A DNA stretch of 64,000 nt from NCBI RefSeq assembly GCF_039538045.1, contig NZ_BAABBQ010000001.1, positions 394,001-458,000 on the forward strand, given 5' to 3'. Position 1 is the first letter of the stretch. Each line of letters begins with the position of its first letter. This document shows, piece by piece, positions 2,779 to 48,707 of this stretch. Position numbers and translations under genes: made by a program. This DNA comes from Sphingomonas swuensis. Lineage in GTDB: Bacteria; Pseudomonadota; Alphaproteobacteria; Sphingomonadales; Sphingomonadaceae. The notes under the pieces are model-generated. The model saw nothing but the letters and a program-made list of their open reading frames with translations, was not told the DNA's origin and searched no databases.

Positions 2779-2801
2779 GTCCGCGAGGGTCGAAAGCGGA
2801 C
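2779..2801 (+). repeat. cassette-type palindrome, left-end type (L1)
   Basis: GTCCGC, 11 bases containing GGGTCGAAA, then GCGGAC: a 6-bp inverted repeat one base shorter than the other copies. It is followed by CTTC. The stop codon of the minus-strand membrane protein gene begins 9 bp further on. It forms the left border of the 2779-3168 unit. Confidence 0.75.
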
Positions 2802-2809
2802 CTTCAACG

Positions 2810-3115
2810 CTATGGAAGTCGGGGTTGCCGATAGAGCAGGATGTATAGAGTCACATGCGCGATTGCGAATACGCCGAAAGTGACAAGCCATAATGAGCCG
2901 TCTCTGAAGGAGAACGAAAGTCCTCCCAACCCGCCTGCGAGAATGACGGTCAAAGTTCGAATGCGGGCAAGAGGTGAGCCCTTCGAAAGCTCAGCGTAGT
3001 TTGCAACTTGCCACTTTGGGTAGCGGATGGGCAAGAAAACTGAGACTTGCGTGTAGATGGACCAGTCCATCACCAGGGACACGACGACTCCGGCAATAAC
3101 TTGTAGCGTGACCAT
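2810..3115 (-). CDS. lone small membrane protein, repeat-bracketed (unknown function)
   Basis: A 101-residue protein with three probable membrane helices: about residues 4-22 (VIAGVVVSLVM), 52-70 (LTVILAGGLGGL) and 76-96 (LVTFGVFAIAHVTLYILL). I do not recognise a family. Base composition is visibly more A/T-rich than the flanking genes, as in the other three repeat-bracketed genes. The ORF fills the unit: start 30 bp from the right-end palindrome, stop 9 bp from the left one. No clear Shine-Dalgarno or promoter is visible. It is probably acquired. Confidence 0.6.
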   Translation of the reverse strand: MVTLQVIAGVVVSLVMDWSIYTQVSVFLPIRYPKWQVANYAELSKGSPLARIRTLTVILAGGLGGLSFSFRDGSLWLVTFGVFAIAHVTLYILLYRQPRLP

Positions 3116-3144
3116 CGTGCACTGGCTCTAATGTGCAACTGAAT

Positions 3145-3168
3145 GTCCGCAATGGGTCGTAAGCAGAC
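3145..3168 (+). repeat. cassette-type palindrome, right-end type (R1)
   Basis: GTCCGC-AATGGGTCGTAA-GCAGAC, 24 bp, followed by CTTC. The arms are 6 bp with one mismatch. It lies upstream of the minus-strand membrane protein gene and 7 bp from the end of the aminopeptidase gene. It shares the AATGGGTCG core with the copies at 45538 and 48283. Confidence 0.8.
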
Positions 3169-45104: not shown

Positions 45105-45175
45105 CCGAACGGCGCGGAGCTGACTCCTCTGCGGCACCCAGGCTCGCAGCGGAGCGTAGCGGATCAGCGGCAGAT

Positions 45176-45199
45176 GTCCGTTATGGGTGGAAAGTGGAC
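45176..45199 (+). repeat. cassette-type palindrome, left-end type (L2)
   Basis: GTCCG-TTATGGGTGGAAAGT-GGAC, 24 bp. Its GGGTGGAA core and (C/T)GGAC arm are shared with the left-end copy at 47699, and the arm with 47187. The stop codon of the 102-aa gene begins 2 bp further on. Confidence 0.75.
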
Positions 45200-45200
45200 G

Positions 45201-45509
45201 TTAGCTTGCGGCGTGTCGAATGAAGTGTTCGAAAGCGTCCTCGAAGGTATGATCGGTCACCTCGTTGGGCATATCCGGCAGTGGCAGAGCCTCTGAAGAG
45301 CCGTTTCGAATCACCGTGATGTCGCAGTCCCCAGTTGACCACACAATCATGCGGCTGACGTTGTCTGCGGTGTCCACGTCGATGAAGAACGATGGATTGC
45401 CTGAAGCTTCGCTCTCTGCGGTGAACGTAAAGGCAGCTTTCAAGCCCTGCTGACTCAGCGCCGCACCCTGCTCACGTGACCAATCCGACCAGCGATGAAA
45501 ATCAAACAT
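45201..45509 (-). CDS. lone 102-aa protein, repeat-bracketed (immunity-protein-like)
   Basis: A 102-residue acidic soluble protein, MFDFHRWSDWSREQGAALSQ. An N-terminal helix is followed by strands with FFIDVDTADNVSRMIVWSTGDCDITVIR and a C-terminal helix FEDAFEHFIRH. The pattern (Trp-rich first helix, short acidic beta domain with VWSTGD) reminds me of small polymorphic-toxin immunity proteins such as the TriTu family, but this is weak. No toxin gene is adjacent. ATG 45509 is chosen; longer starts would translate the right-end repeat. It is A/T-richer than its neighbours. Confidence 0.55.
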   Translation of the reverse strand: MFDFHRWSDWSREQGAALSQQGLKAAFTFTAESEASGNPSFFIDVDTADNVSRMIVWSTGDCDITVIRNGSSEALPLPDMPNEVTDHTFEDAFEHFIRHAAS

Positions 45510-45537
45510 TGTGGAGAGGTATTCCAGTCGCCCCAAT

Positions 45538-45561
45538 GTCCGCAATGGGTCGAAAGCAGCC
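45538..45561 (+). repeat. cassette-type palindrome, right-end type (R2)
   Basis: GTCCGC-AATGGGTCGAAA-GCAGCC, 24 bp. The core is identical to 3145 except one base. It lies 29 bp upstream of the 102-aa gene start (minus strand) and 75 bp from the end of the L,D-transpeptidase gene. Confidence 0.8.
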
Positions 45562-45635
45562 ATTCTCGTCGACATCTTGAAGGGGAGCGAGGCGCCCCGT
45601 TTGCCCATGCACTCGTTCCGACGCCCAAGCGCTGA

Positions 45636-47087
45636 TCAGCCAGCGATCTTGGGCTTCTTCCTGGCGGGAAGTTTGGAGACTGCCGGCCTCGCTTTCGCTT
45701 TCGCGGATGCGAGCGGCTCGGTGGTTCTCTCTGCGGGATCCTTGGCCTTCGCCGCGACGGGCTTGGGGGCGAGCGGATCATCGCCGCCGACCGCGTCGAA
45801 ATCGATCTCCAGCGTCGGTCGGGCCGGGCGGCGGCTGTCTTCTTTCGCGATGAACTGGGCGAGCACCTTGGTGTCGCGGCGATAGGGGTCGGCTCGGAAC
45901 AGGGTGCCGGAACCGCCGTCCGGCGAGGCGGTCAGGTAGGTCAGGTAGACCGGCATCGGTTCGAACAGGGCGAGATTGTCCTCCCGGTCCGGATCGGCGG
46001 GTCGAGGCACGGCGCCAAAGATCCACTGGGCCAGGCGCGCCGCATCCTCGAGGCGGACGCAACCGTTGCTGACCCACCGGTCGTCCTGGGCGAACAGCGC
46101 CTTGCTGGGTGTATCGTGGAGATAGATGCCGAACTCGTTGGGCATCATGAACTTGATGGCCCCCATGCTGTTGGCACCGCCGGGCAGCTGGCGGACCCGC
46201 TGCTCGAAGCGGCCGGCCGCGACGGCGGCCCAGTCGATGGTCGCCGGGTCGACCAGCTTGGAGTCGCGTTCCCATCCGTCCAGCACTTCATAGCGACGCT
46301 CGGCAAGGTAGCTCGACCCCTCGGCCAACACGCGCGGGGCGATCAGCTTGGCGACCAGATCGACCGGCACGTTCCAATAGGGATTGACGCTGGCATAGCG
46401 CATCATCGCCGCCATCATCGGGGTCGCCGAACTCGGCGCGCCGACGACGACCTTCATGCTGTCGACAGGCCGGCCATCCTCATACATCCACAACCGAGCC
46501 GAGCCCACATCGACCAGGATGTAGCGCTTGGCCGCGTTCGGCGCGGGGAGCCGTCGCGCCCGTTCCATGTTCAGCAACAACTTGCGCTCGAACAGGGCGG
46601 ACCCCTGATTGAGCGCGGCGATGGTCGTGGGGCCCGGCTTGCCGTCGACGGGAAGGCCGTGGACGCGCTGGAATTCCGATACTCGTGCTTCGAGTGCGGG
46701 ATCCACCGTCCCTGCAGAGGGCAGGCCCAGCCGCTCGCGCAGGAGACGAACCCGGCTGTTGTCGGCGCCGGGTGTCAGCGGGCCGCCGCTGGTCGGAACC
46801 CGGAGCTGCGGCAGGCTGCTCCAGTCGCGCTGGTATCGAAGCAGCTGGCGACGGAGATCGGTGTAGAGGTGATGGATCGGCTTGAGCAGGTCGATCGGCG
46901 CCCCACTCCAGCTCACGTCCTCGATCTCCGGCTGATCGGGGGCAAGCTCGGGCTCCGGCGGCATCGCGCCGGCATCGATGATGATCATGTCGATCGCCGG
47001 ATTCGCACTTGGCTGGCGGTCCGCGGCCGCCGCGCGGCCACTCACCAGCAGGAGCGCAGCCGCGCCGATAAACTTCCATTGCACCAC
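45636..47087 (-). CDS. L,D-transpeptidase (YcbB/LdtD-like)
   Basis: A 483-residue exported enzyme that makes 3-3 peptidoglycan cross-links or attaches proteins to peptidoglycan. It has a signal peptide (FIGAAALLLVSGRAAA), a peptidoglycan-binding helix region (RVRLLRERLGLPSAGTVD...FQRVHGLPVDGKPG) and a YkuD catalytic domain with GIYLHDTPSKALF and Cys343 in WVSNGCVRLED. It ends in a Lys/Ala/Pro-rich tail (about 440-483). It is monocistronic, flanked on both sides by repeat-bracketed genes. Confidence 0.9.
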   Translation of the reverse strand: MVQWKFIGAAALLLVSGRAAAADRQPSANPAIDMIIIDAGAMPPEPELAPDQPEIEDVSWSGAPIDLLKPIHHLYTDLRRQLLRYQRDWSSLPQLRVPTSGGPLTPGADNSRVRLLRERLGLPSAGTVDPALEARVSEFQRVHGLPVDGKPGPTTIAALNQGSALFERKLLLNMERARRLPAPNAAKRYILVDVGSARLWMYEDGRPVDSMKVVVGAPSSATPMMAAMMRYASVNPYWNVPVDLVAKLIAPRVLAEGSSYLAERRYEVLDGWERDSKLVDPATIDWAAVAAGRFEQRVRQLPGGANSMGAIKFMMPNEFGIYLHDTPSKALFAQDDRWVSNGCVRLEDAARLAQWIFGAVPRPADPDREDNLALFEPMPVYLTYLTASPDGGSGTLFRADPYRRDTKVLAQFIAKEDSRRPARPTLEIDFDAVGGDDPLAPKPVAAKAKDPAERTTEPLASAKAKARPAVSKLPARKKPKIAG

Positions 47088-47186
47088 AAGCTTACCCCAC
47101 GCGCACCGCTGGCCACCCCTTCTAGGGCTGGCGCGTGAACCTCGCAGTAATCACGTGGCTGTTGCGGCAGCCGGCCTGGCGCAAAG

Positions 47187-47210
47187 GTCCGCTATTTGTG
47201 GAGAGCGGAC
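47187..47210 (+). repeat. cassette-type palindrome, left-end type (L3)
   Basis: GTCCGC-TATTTGTGGAGA-GCGGAC, 24 bp with perfect 6-bp arms, followed by ACTC as at 47699. The stop of the 143-aa gene is 10 bp further on. It marks the left border of the first of two tandem units. Confidence 0.78.
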
Positions 47211-47220
47211 ACTCGCGTCC

Positions 47221-47652
47221 TCACGCAAAATAGGATCTTACGGGCTCGTCACAGCGCAAGACATGCTCAGCTAAGCTGAATACCTCTTTGGCCAGGGGAT
47301 GCTGGAGAGCCTCGTCGCGTGGCAAAACCGTGCCGAGGTATCCGGACGACCACGCGGAGTCCTGAGCGTCGACAAGAGTCACGTTCGTGTTCAGCTCATC
47401 CGACCAGAGGTCGAAAGTGAACGCTATCCGCGCGGAGGGCTTTTCCGCCTCGTCCCAACGGCCGAAGCCTACAATCATTTGGGCTCGAGGTGGCTGGTGC
47501 TCAGAGATCAGCGCCGCCTTGTAGATAGCAAACGGTGAGCCGTGCCGAGTCACGTATCGCGTCAAAATCTGCTGGCTTGCACCGCAGCAGGCGCACGAAC
47601 CCGCCTCGGGCTTCTCGAACTCGATCTCATCCACAGCAATGAAATGAAGCAC
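47221..47652 (-). CDS. lone 143-aa protein with CACC motif, repeat-bracketed
   Basis: A 143-residue soluble protein. An N-terminal strand (HFIAVDEIEFEKPEAG) is followed by CACCGASQQILTRYVTRHGSPFAIYKAAL, in which C-A-C-C could be a metal or redox site. VGFGRWDEAE and RIAFTFDLWSDE follow, then a helical C-terminus (LAKEVFSLAEHVLRCDEPVRSYF). I do not recognise a family. It is A/T-richer than the flanking chromosome. The start is 10 bp from the right-end palindrome; no promoter is visible. Confidence 0.6.
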   Translation of the reverse strand: MLHFIAVDEIEFEKPEAGSCACCGASQQILTRYVTRHGSPFAIYKAALISEHQPPRAQMIVGFGRWDEAEKPSARIAFTFDLWSDELNTNVTLVDAQDSAWSSGYLGTVLPRDEALQHPLAKEVFSLAEHVLRCDEPVRSYFA

Positions 47653-47661
47653 GGGCTAAAC

Positions 47662-47685
47662 TTCCGCAATGAGTCGGAGTCAGAC
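47662..47685 (+). repeat. cassette-type palindrome, right-end type (R3)
   Basis: TTCCGC-AATGAGTCGGAG-TCAGAC, 24 bp, followed by CTTCG as at 3145. It is somewhat degenerate. It lies upstream of the 143-aa gene and only 13 bp from the left-end copy at 47699, forming an R-L junction between two units. Confidence 0.72.
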
Positions 47686-47698
47686 CTTCGTCCAGAAC

Positions 47699-47722
47699 GT
47701 CGCAAACGGGTGGAACGCGGAC
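47699..47722 (+). repeat. cassette-type palindrome, left-end type (L4)
   Basis: GTCGC-AAACGGGTGGAAC-GCGGAC with ACTC following, 24 bp in total. The right arm is intact and the left arm has lost one base. The stop of the 176-aa DUF2059-like gene starts 3 bp after the arm. Confidence 0.72.
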
Positions 47723-47724
47723 AC

Positions 47725-48255
47725 TCATGGCTTCGCGAGATTGGCCATGGCGTCTTTCAAGAGTTGCTCTTCCATCTGCTCAGTTTCGGTGCCGACATAA
47801 GCCTCCATCCGCCAACGGCCATCAAGAAAGTGCTTTCCTACAGGGCGTTCCAAGAACCCTACTATCTCGGCGAGTTCAGCTTCGGTGAACTCCCAGTTCA
47901 CGTGGTCCTCGTATGCCTGCTGATATTCTTTCCGATGTTTAGAGTAGGCGTTCGTCAAAGCGGCCATCCGCTTCTCGAAGCCGCTCTTGAGGCCCTCCCG
48001 CATGTCTTGGCCGCTCGTGACTTGCCACATCGGGCCACCCGGAACCGCATAACGTTCGAGGAAGCTGCCGCTATCAAGCTGCTGCTGAAGACCAATCGCC
48101 CGGAGAAATCGACGGACGAGCAACAGCTTCGACGGACTGGCAGGCACACCGATTTGCGCAGATGGCGCGAGCGTTTCGTTAGTTTGCGGGGGAGCAGCCA
48201 GCGCAGTCGAGGTTGAGAATAGCGCGACCACGCCGAGCAGCAGGAAGGTCTTCAT
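47725..48255 (-). CDS. exported DUF2059-like protein, repeat-bracketed
   Basis: A 176-residue protein with a signal peptide (MKTFLLLGVVALFSTSTALAAP). A helical domain has LVRRFLRAIGLQQQL near the start and FTEAELAEIVGFLERPVGKHFLD near the end. This is the Ft-x-x-EL-x-x-l-x-x-F-x-x-p-x-G-x-k pattern of DUF2059 periplasmic proteins of unknown function. The ATG is placed at 48255, because the longer frame translates the right-end repeat (VVCLRPIADH). It is A/T-richer than its surroundings and oriented like the other three repeat-bracketed genes. Confidence 0.65.
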   Translation of the reverse strand: MKTFLLLGVVALFSTSTALAAPPQTNETLAPSAQIGVPASPSKLLLVRRFLRAIGLQQQLDSGSFLERYAVPGGPMWQVTSGQDMREGLKSGFEKRMAALTNAYSKHRKEYQQAYEDHVNWEFTEAELAEIVGFLERPVGKHFLDGRWRMEAYVGTETEQMEEQLLKDAMANLAKP

Positions 48256-48282
48256 CTCCGCACTCTGTCCGGCGCTGCTATG

Positions 48283-48306
48283 GTCCGCAATGGGCCGTAA
48301 GCAGAC
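48283..48306 (+). repeat. cassette-type palindrome, right-end type (R4)
   Basis: GTCCGC-AATGGGCCGTAA-GCAGAC, 24 bp, one core base different from 3145. It lies 28 bp upstream of the DUF2059-like gene start and closes the double unit 47187-48306. Confidence 0.8.
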
Positions 48307-48362
48307 AACCGGGTCGCTCACTGCGCCAGCCCTTCCTCGCTCATCTCCACGACCAGCGACTT

Positions 48363-48707
48363 TCAGCGTACCAGCCAGCCCTGTTGCTGCAGCGTTCGCC
48401 GCCAGCTCTTCACGAAACAGCCCGTCCCTGCCGAGGGTCCGACCGGGCCGCAGCTGCCGATCCCGGTGTCGCCTTCGCCGACCCAGCCCATCCGCTCGGT
48501 CATCACGCCCTTGACGTTGCCGCCCGGATCATAGGGCGCGTCGGGCGGGGTGACCTGATAGCGCTGGGCCTGCGCCCGCCGGCCGCAGACCAGCACCTCG
48601 GCATCCTCGCCGCGCGACCGGCACTCCTGCCGTGCGACCTCGCGGGTGACGGCACCGGACAGGTCGGGAGCGAGAACCACGACGAGGAACAGCACGGCGC
48701 GCAGCAT
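48363..48707 (-). CDS. exported sphingomonad-type Cys-containing small protein
   Basis: A 114-residue protein with signal peptide MLRAVLFLVVVLAPDLSGA. It then has QECRSRGEDAEVLVCGRRAQAQRYQVTP, a motif (VxVCGRR followed by RY/R) seen in many small exported sphingomonad proteins of unknown function, and further Cys in GIGSCGPVG and GTGCFVKSW. Four cysteines suggest two disulfides. ATG 48707 is preferred over the longer frame because it begins with the signal peptide. It is divergent from the lysozyme gene. Confidence 0.65.
   Translation of the reverse strand: MLRAVLFLVVVLAPDLSGAVTREVARQECRSRGEDAEVLVCGRRAQAQRYQVTPPDAPYDPGGNVKGVMTERMGWVGEGDTGIGSCGPVGPSAGTGCFVKSWRRTLQQQGWLVR

Follow-up and report, generated by a model that had tools for sequence, protein, structure and literature searches.

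In integrons, cassettes that consist of one gene and one recombination site are lined up in arrays, some of which are accompanied by a tyrosine recombinase (IntI) while others are orphans; the attC sites follow the consensus RYYYAAC ... GTTRRRY. Genes that move as units are also found in pdif modules, where they lie between dif-like sites and neighbouring sites are mutually inverted. Xer recombinases act on dif sites composed of two inverted arms around a short centre, and FimB/FimE-type invertases are tyrosine recombinases of about 200 amino acids. Here we describe gene units in the window, a 64,000-nucleotide stretch of the Sphingomonas swuensis genome, which look like products of a gene-capture system parallel to integrons. 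Judged from sequence comparison, the units are very likely mobile gene cassettes that recombine site-specifically within a palindrome of 24-30 bp, with a putative enzyme termed type A below. Openly searchable papers, including passages of PMC8138268 and PMC3414803, yielded no description of such a system; subscription papers and preprints lay outside this scope, so that a description elsewhere is possible. The genome under study is labelled G000; G017, G011 and G020 are congeners.

All eight repeats and the four lone A/T-richer genes reported by the first-pass annotation were located as claimed (Table 1), the GC content of the genes being 0.529-0.583 in comparison to 0.685 for the window. Stop codons lie 1-10 bp from the L site (45199/45201, 47210/47221, 47722/47725, 2801/2810) and starts 9-29 bp from the R site, where 2-10 and 10-30 bp had been given. 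By our reading of the sequence, the product of the GC-rich gene between the first two units of the downstream group would be L,D-transpeptidase-like.

Table 1 Sites, cassette genes and neighbouring features in the window.
Feature	Position	Strand	Basis or remark
L-side site, 23-bp decayed copy	2779..2801	+	decayed R-like copy ends immediately before
Cassette gene, 101 aa	2810..3115	-	no Pfam match at E<=0.01
R site GTCCGCAATGGGTCGTAAGCAGAC	3145..3168	+	at orthologous spot variable among congeners
L site, first unit	45176..45199	+	site search
Cassette gene, 102 aa, immunity protein TriTu	45201..45509	-	PF24689, E 2.3e-8, over cut-off
R site, first unit	45538..45561	+	24-mer search
Non-cassette gene, 483 aa, GC-rich, between two units	45636..47087	-	ORF
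L site, second unit	47187..47210	+	24-mer search
Cassette gene, 143 aa	47221..47652	-	no Pfam match at E<=0.01
R site (decayed), second unit	47662..47685	+	24-mer search, 4 mismatches
Linker of R-L site pair, 13 bp	47686..47698	.	start-to-start 37 bp, recurring spacing
L site (decayed), third unit	47699..47722	+	weight matrix
Cassette gene, 176 aa, DUF2059-like	47725..48255	-	22.9 bits vs cut-off 23.6, just under
R site closing the group	48283..48306	+	homology to G092 and G093 copies stops at last base

In the weight matrix, the site consists of the arms GTCCGC and GCGGAC, extended by AAT and ATT, around NNT-GGGT-SG-NAA, giving a full palindrome of 24-30 bp (AAT GTCCGC-NNT-GGGT-SG-NAA GCGGAC ATT). 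The looser motif originally proposed, GTCCGC-N12-GCGGAC, is not enriched above chance, as 23 matches with up to two mismatches were found within the window and 18.67 were expected. The specific 24-mer GTCCGCNATGGGTCGNAAGCNGAC, however, occurs 58 times in the 2.79-Mb genome at up to three mismatches, and the same pattern read backwards was not found at all. Scored over the window and 12 fetched stretches, the weight matrix returned 175 matches above 9 bits, a total in which one palindrome may count on both strands, compared to 2 in the reversed control. Among the window copies, those at 47187 and 47662 differ from the 24-mer at four positions each, that at 47699 is missed at up to four mismatches and scores 21.6 with the weight matrix, and that at 2779 has decayed to a 23-mer. 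Sites form clusters, for example at C1:219999-221470, 530146-531329, 915823-918448, 2212471-2220695 and 2240183-2244233; orientation is uniform in most runs and switches once in each of the last two. A scan of the genus matched sites in 59 of 71 genomes and none in the other 12.

Folding of the bottom strand, which the first-pass annotation had proposed as a check, was extended to both strands of idealised sites: hybrid and L sites form hairpins on either strand, and R sites fold more weakly (top strand z -1.15). The predicted folds did not choose between single-strand and double-strand action. At the Rfam gathering threshold nothing was matched in L040 or L104, and the two matches in L172 are both outside the array. 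A second dispersed repeat, approximately RTTAGC-N5-AGCTGAACGAACGGCCGCTT, was observed in the right flank 10-13 bp after a minority of outer R sites (L034:5824, L040:5472, L040:14129 and L041:9711, among others) and may be part of a landing site. Open reading frames cross the R palindrome at L033:5862-6332, L034:5822-6412 and L040:7607-7852, and the N-termini of the predicted proteins, encoded by the site, resemble one another (MSAYDPLQTF, MSAFDPLRTF, MSALGGKRTS); starts of this kind are probably artefacts of annotation.

Neighbouring sites are mostly direct repeats, and a unit is the interval between two of them. For 163 unique units from this and related genomes, the median interior is 484 bp with a GC content of 0.569. 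The L-gene-R order on the minus strand holds for the four window units, as had been claimed, but neither part of that description covers the wider set: a crude longest-ORF rule assigned 101 unit genes to the minus and 55 to the plus direction (7 units without ORF), and units also form arrays with hybrid sites. Several runs in this genome, e.g., L033, proceed from L (TTT or TAT, GGGT-GG) through a hybrid site (AAT-GGGT-GG) to R (AAT-GGGT-CG).

The two classes of ends are real, and they are associated with the position of the units, so that the random placement which the first-pass annotation had set against its own proposal did not appear. Where a unit lies to the right of the site, position 14 is G in 68 of 84 cases, and where none does, in 19 of 80 (p=1e-13; 170 non-independent sites from three genomes, omitting 6 with another base). 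A weaker association was seen for AA at positions 7-8, present at 63 of 88 sites with a unit on the left and 41 of 82 without (p=0.005). Each half-site therefore tends to go with its own side. The L and R classes are evidently two independent half-sites that recombine inside the palindrome, i.e., products of exchange in GGGT, rather than the separate motifs first described. Same-orientation site pairs no more than 80 bp apart were found 24 times, with start-to-start distances of 25 bp in 6 and 35-37 bp in 17 of them, two spacings that differ by about one helical turn; the order is C14 then G14, that is R then L, in 21 pairs.

To follow the units across genomes, 169 inter-site units from the fetched loci were compared at a minimum match of 100 bp. 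Eleven pairs were obtained, of which six were the same DNA fetched twice, two were congener-congener pairs at 66-75% identity and three were shared units. The three shared units of G000 recur in G017 with 95.4, 99.7 and 94.2% identity over the site-to-site interval; their 90-bp flanks are 21-29% identical, and identity over the first 60 bp inward from the ends is 83-100%, bar one value of 20% caused by a 1-bp shift. The units at L033:5147-5498 and L040:10474-11567 lie 1.69 Mb apart on the G000 contig and are adjacent in G017 (L110:6785-8207). The second of them, with 1,046 bp inside, is also present in G011 at 99%, and this cassette is 99.7-99.9% identical across the three species in different surroundings. 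Its interior differs at three bases between G000 and G017, one between G000 and G011 and two between G017 and G011, and all remaining differences fall at positions 4, 7 and 9 of the left site and 14, 16 and 21 of the right site. Up to and including GGGT the right site is the same in the three copies, GTCCGCTTC-GGGT, and it continues with GGAAAGCGGAC, CGGAAGCGGAC or CGTAAGCAGAC depending on the place. Outside the interior, the differences are thus confined to the outer half-sites, which places the crossover in GGGT.

For the 1,046-bp unit, the sequences flanking it in G000 and in G017 are no more alike than by chance, and the G011 copy occupies the orthologue of the window spot 2779-3168, in G000 another place than that of the unit. 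In the compared stretches, chromosomal genes that G000 has in common with G011 or G017 show 72-89% identity; the unit is far closer than this, hence the unit and not the chromosome was shared recently. The alignments thus support the proposal of a cassette-type mobile unit made in the first-pass annotation, and units have evidently moved between chromosomal places and species as single pieces. In the third shared unit (94.2%), the left site varies between C and G at position 14, a change not foreseen in the simple model. The window interval 47662-48306, comprising the site pair, the third unit and its R site, has an 80% relative in G092 (C186), and parts of it match at 72% in G093 (right part, ending at the site) and at 78% in G092 (C10). 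Surroundings of the G092 and G093 copies are unlike those in the window, single sites apart. These DNA searches in other genomes scored the best 4 to 6 candidates per genome, and absence there is no proof. Plasmids gave no match to the 1,046-bp cassette; among viral contigs, 13 stretches with a site were found.

Orthologous places differ in their content. At the 2779-3168 spot, fetched from 20 congeners, units are present in three (one unit in G031, several in G028, and in G011 a series ending with the 1,046-bp unit), a gap of 30-162 bp without a site in seven and other DNA without a detected site in nine, while the upstream region of one was not alignable. The window interval 45105-48364, whose upstream gene is radical-SAM-like by our reading of its sequence, corresponds in G020 to a 21-bp gap at the junction of the upstream and downstream genes. 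This gap spans 45636-47087, so the GC-rich 483-aa gene is absent together with the cassette units. At the same junction G011 has a different L-gene-R unit ahead of the downstream gene, and G017 has 1.1 kb of other DNA with no detected sites. The same genes always at one locus with no empty alleles, which the first-pass annotation had also named as speaking against mobility, did not appear, as units occur at different loci and short gaps exist at 2779-3168; the gap alleles, though, are without a site. The predicted empty site TTT-GGGT-CG is rare among the 170 sites of three genomes. Site-less gap alleles and so few empty sites count against the model as far as entry into a naive location is concerned.

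A candidate enzyme was found in G017, where a 207-aa PF00589 protein is encoded between two runs of sites that are mostly oriented away from the gene. We define type A as genes at least 66% identical to this protein and type B as those 54-62% identical. Type A is a tyrosine recombinase of about 200 aa with the catalytic domain alone (PF00589 at 1e-17). The catalytic residues R, K, H-R, H and Y are conserved, with D in place of the second H in L131. Intact type A genes occur in 18 of 59 site-bearing and 0 of 12 site-free genomes (p=0.02, kinship not corrected), the kind of co-occurring recombinase for which the first-pass annotation had suggested a search; the other 41 site-bearing genomes have no intact type A, and some of them keep small-recombinase fragments. 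Broken or partial small recombinase genes were observed in G007, G009, G010, G064, G071 and G085, among others. The first-pass annotation had seen no integrase, and G000 indeed has no type A, containing a type B gene at C1:2148110 and a distant match at 30% identity; in congeners, however, type A lies beside such sites.

Taking one locus per genome (n=18; second copies in G010 and G021 were left out), type A genes have adjoining sites in all 18 cases. The nearest upstream site, present at 15 loci, has the same orientation in all 15 and is within 200 bp in 13 (median 48); in 11 of the 15 it lies 39-50 bp from the start codon. Considered as a possible counterpart of attI, this upstream site does not differ in kind from those of the cassettes. 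The nearest downstream site, found at all 18 loci, has the opposite orientation to the upstream one and is within 100 bp in 8. Over 60.3 kb of type A loci 64 sites were counted and none in the reversed control, compared to 7 in 42.4 kb at type B loci. A quick tree, for which the program warned of long branches, was built from 85 rows: 30 congener loci and 57 chosen from 80 named loci, 2 of the 87 being dropped for a stop. Type A forms one clade in this tree, with an SH-aLRT of 99. A "has sites" label applies to 19 of 19 type A rows and 9 of 66 other rows, with one genome twice among the 19 and one palindrome possibly counted twice. Neighbouring sites with GGCAGG or GGCGGG arms were found at 6 of 9 genes of subclade A2 and at 0 of 9 of subclade A1 (L115-L123), a pattern suggestive of joint change in site and enzyme.

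Structure prediction of type A from an alignment of 48 rows, fewer than the 58 tried, gave a model with a pLDDT of 86.0 that comprises the catalytic domain only and has a poorly predicted start; a first model from 17 rows was poor (pLDDT 59.8). By fold the nearest structures are XerH (5jk0) and XerA (5hxy), while the integron integrase 2a3v ranks lower; by sequence they are XerD, XerC-like proteins and XerH. The type A protein scored against NCBIfam gave eight matches, the best at 52.3 bits where cut-offs are 220-371, and IntI models were not among them. XerC scored 52.3 bits against a cut-off of 335, XerD 31 against 330, and PRK09871 matched weakly at 21.6 bits, invertase cut-offs being 221-222 bits. 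Type A is an Xer-type catalytic domain but, by the curated cut-offs, neither XerC nor XerD. Among the matches listed from plasmids and phages, proteins resembling type A are at most 64.7% identical.

In the best case, the 1,046-bp unit, exchange took place in the central GGGT, so that both ends of the inserted cassette combine one half from the cassette with another from the location. In the mechanism we propose, excision would produce a circle with one site (AAT-GGGT-GG), and insertion of such circles at further sites would build arrays that read L-gene-H-gene-R. The enzyme would be type A, for which its position beside such sites in congeners provides good support. In G000, type A may have been lost or may be supplied in trans, leaving the units as orphans, like integron cassettes without an integrase.

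The same mobile cassettes could be served in G000 by another enzyme, either the type B small recombinase or XerC/XerD. We consider this unlikely: type B is retained in G000 alongside the 58 sites, and sites with other cores lie at the type B loci L135 and L138 (TGGCCG) and around a Zoogloea relative (L153, TCGGCCA), but type B genes also occur in the site-free genomes G002, G006, G013 and G061, and site density at their loci is far below that at type A loci. That repeats which are numerous and alike exchanged by homologous or illegitimate recombination after DNA uptake, with no dedicated recombinase needed, would suit a G000 devoid of type A. Such a process is improbable, however, given an exchange in the same 4 bp at both ends of the 1,046-bp unit in all three species and a recombinase gene placed 39-50 bp from an outward site; moreover, a repeat of 24 bp offers little homology for a RecA-type process. 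Bidirectional terminators or regulatory palindromes with no role beyond flanking small genes would explain an intergenic position at gene ends, but not one unit at different loci and in different species with hybrid ends, nor gaps at the orthologous spot. The chance that the palindromes are static in this way is close to nil, and we rejected the idea on the shared units and gap alleles. The units do not have the inverted terminal repeats of MITEs or DNA transposons; at their ends a palindrome with hybrid halves is repeated directly.

A hairpin on either strand of idealised sites, together with their large number between genes, would be expected of REP/RAYT or IS200/IS605 elements, which a Y1 transposase mobilises in single-stranded form. 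Y1_Tnp (PF01797) was detected in 3 of 71 genus genomes, none of them G000, G017, G011 or G014, and exchange within the palindrome is unlike the cleavage beside the hairpin of REP/RAYT-type mechanisms; this origin is highly improbable and was rejected. An odd subtype of true integron cassettes, moved by IntI on attC, would account for single-gene arrays with one site per gene, an integrase beside some of them and orphan arrays elsewhere. The TIGR02249 profile of IntI found none over its cut-off in the 71 genus genomes, although matches came in pieces and may understate; type B reached 25.3 bits against the cut-off of 265. The best pieces belong to a 290-aa integrase (L339, G069:C1:2514489-2515286) that adjoins a frame we read as an IS91-like transposase. 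The attC pair RYYYAAC..GTTRRRY within 60 bp was seen at 0 of 170 sites and in 1 of 850 random windows, and GTTRRRY directly follows 1 of 170 sites, bearing out the earlier statement that the motif is not a standard attC. With both tests failing, the system was not filed as an integron, and an IntI/attC identity is very unlikely.

The preferred reading, mobile cassettes with a putative type A enzyme, shares with integrons single-gene units with one site each, arrays, a tyrosine recombinase beside some of these, orphan arrays and a cargo in which an immunity-like protein occurs beside proteins that match no family. It differs in a recombinase of catalytic domain alone and in short palindromic sites with a GGGT exchange point; in addition, many cassettes are single or in small groups along the chromosome, and sites point outward on both sides of type A. 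Arrays of single genes in one orientation were found in Dyella, whereas sphingomonad units are only 101 versus 55. With Xer/dif the system has in common the nearest structures and two inverted arms around a short centre, but the type A model lacks an N-terminal core-binding domain, scores are far below the XerC/XerD equivalog cut-offs, and here many dispersed sites have cargo between them. Like pdif modules, genes lie between dif-like sites and are movable as units; unlike them, the sites are mostly direct repeats, and in congeners they are accompanied by a dedicated recombinase gene. FimB/FimE-type invertases are similar in size and in the weak PRK09871 match, but type A, by its layout, would act between direct repeats that enclose a wide variety of cargo genes.

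Relatives of type A extend beyond the genus, with at least 8,000 candidates, all at E<=0.001, and at least 80 loci in named genomes, mainly about 60% identical. Among these 80 listed loci, three have clear arrays of GTCCGC-N12/13-GCGGAC adjoining the enzyme gene, namely those of Dyella sp. OK004 (L172), of a proteobacterial MAG (L156) and of an uncultured sphingomonad (L209); a few sites are near the enzyme in Sphingomonas MAGs (L145-L147), and most loci have none. Over the 80 loci the loose motif was found 83 times compared to 40.8 in shuffles. An inverted 24-mer pair with at least 19 matching bases brackets the enzyme at 15 of 108 loci and 3 of 108 mismatched controls (two of 110 loci with flanks below 100 bp omitted, one locus present twice as L126/L147). 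When the class was searched by pattern, 12 of 385 genomes, G000 among them, gave the strict motif. The Dyella sp. OK004 genome has 55 sites (control 0), most of them in three co-oriented arrays, one beside the enzyme relative. A motif search of the fetched stretches for the other two, C7:158272-182967, which includes a 13-kb site-free stretch, and C8:114720-136330, found no such recombinase. Open reading frames of at least 60 aa run against rather than along the main site direction by 15 to 1 in L172, 23 to 6 in L322, 9 to 1 in L323 and 14 to 4 in L324, and by 11 to 11 in L325, which includes a long site-free stretch.

It seems probable that these minimal Xer-like catalytic-domain recombinases, with thousands of relatives in Proteobacteria, and their GGGT palindromes make up a separate second gene-cassette system, with subclade-specific site arms, arrays of about 20 kb (Dyella) as well as lone chromosomal cassettes, and a hidden pool of accessory genes. 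If so, many lone A/T-richer small genes of sphingomonads would be cassettes, which integron finders based on IntI and attC would probably miss. The palindrome would then offer a searchable signature for a mobile-gene reservoir of immunity-like proteins, oxidoreductases and unknowns, and a compact recombinase with short sites would be a natural comparison for the origin of integrons from Xer-type enzymes. Sites with other cores were observed next to related recombinases. At the type B loci L135 and L138, one TGGCCG-core site lies 47-49 bp after the stop, and in the Zoogloea relatives L153, L155 and L168 sites or inverted repeats with another core are nearby, inverted 24-mers with a TCGGCCA core flanking L153. 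Such sites of other recombinase subfamilies possibly represent a parallel cassette class.
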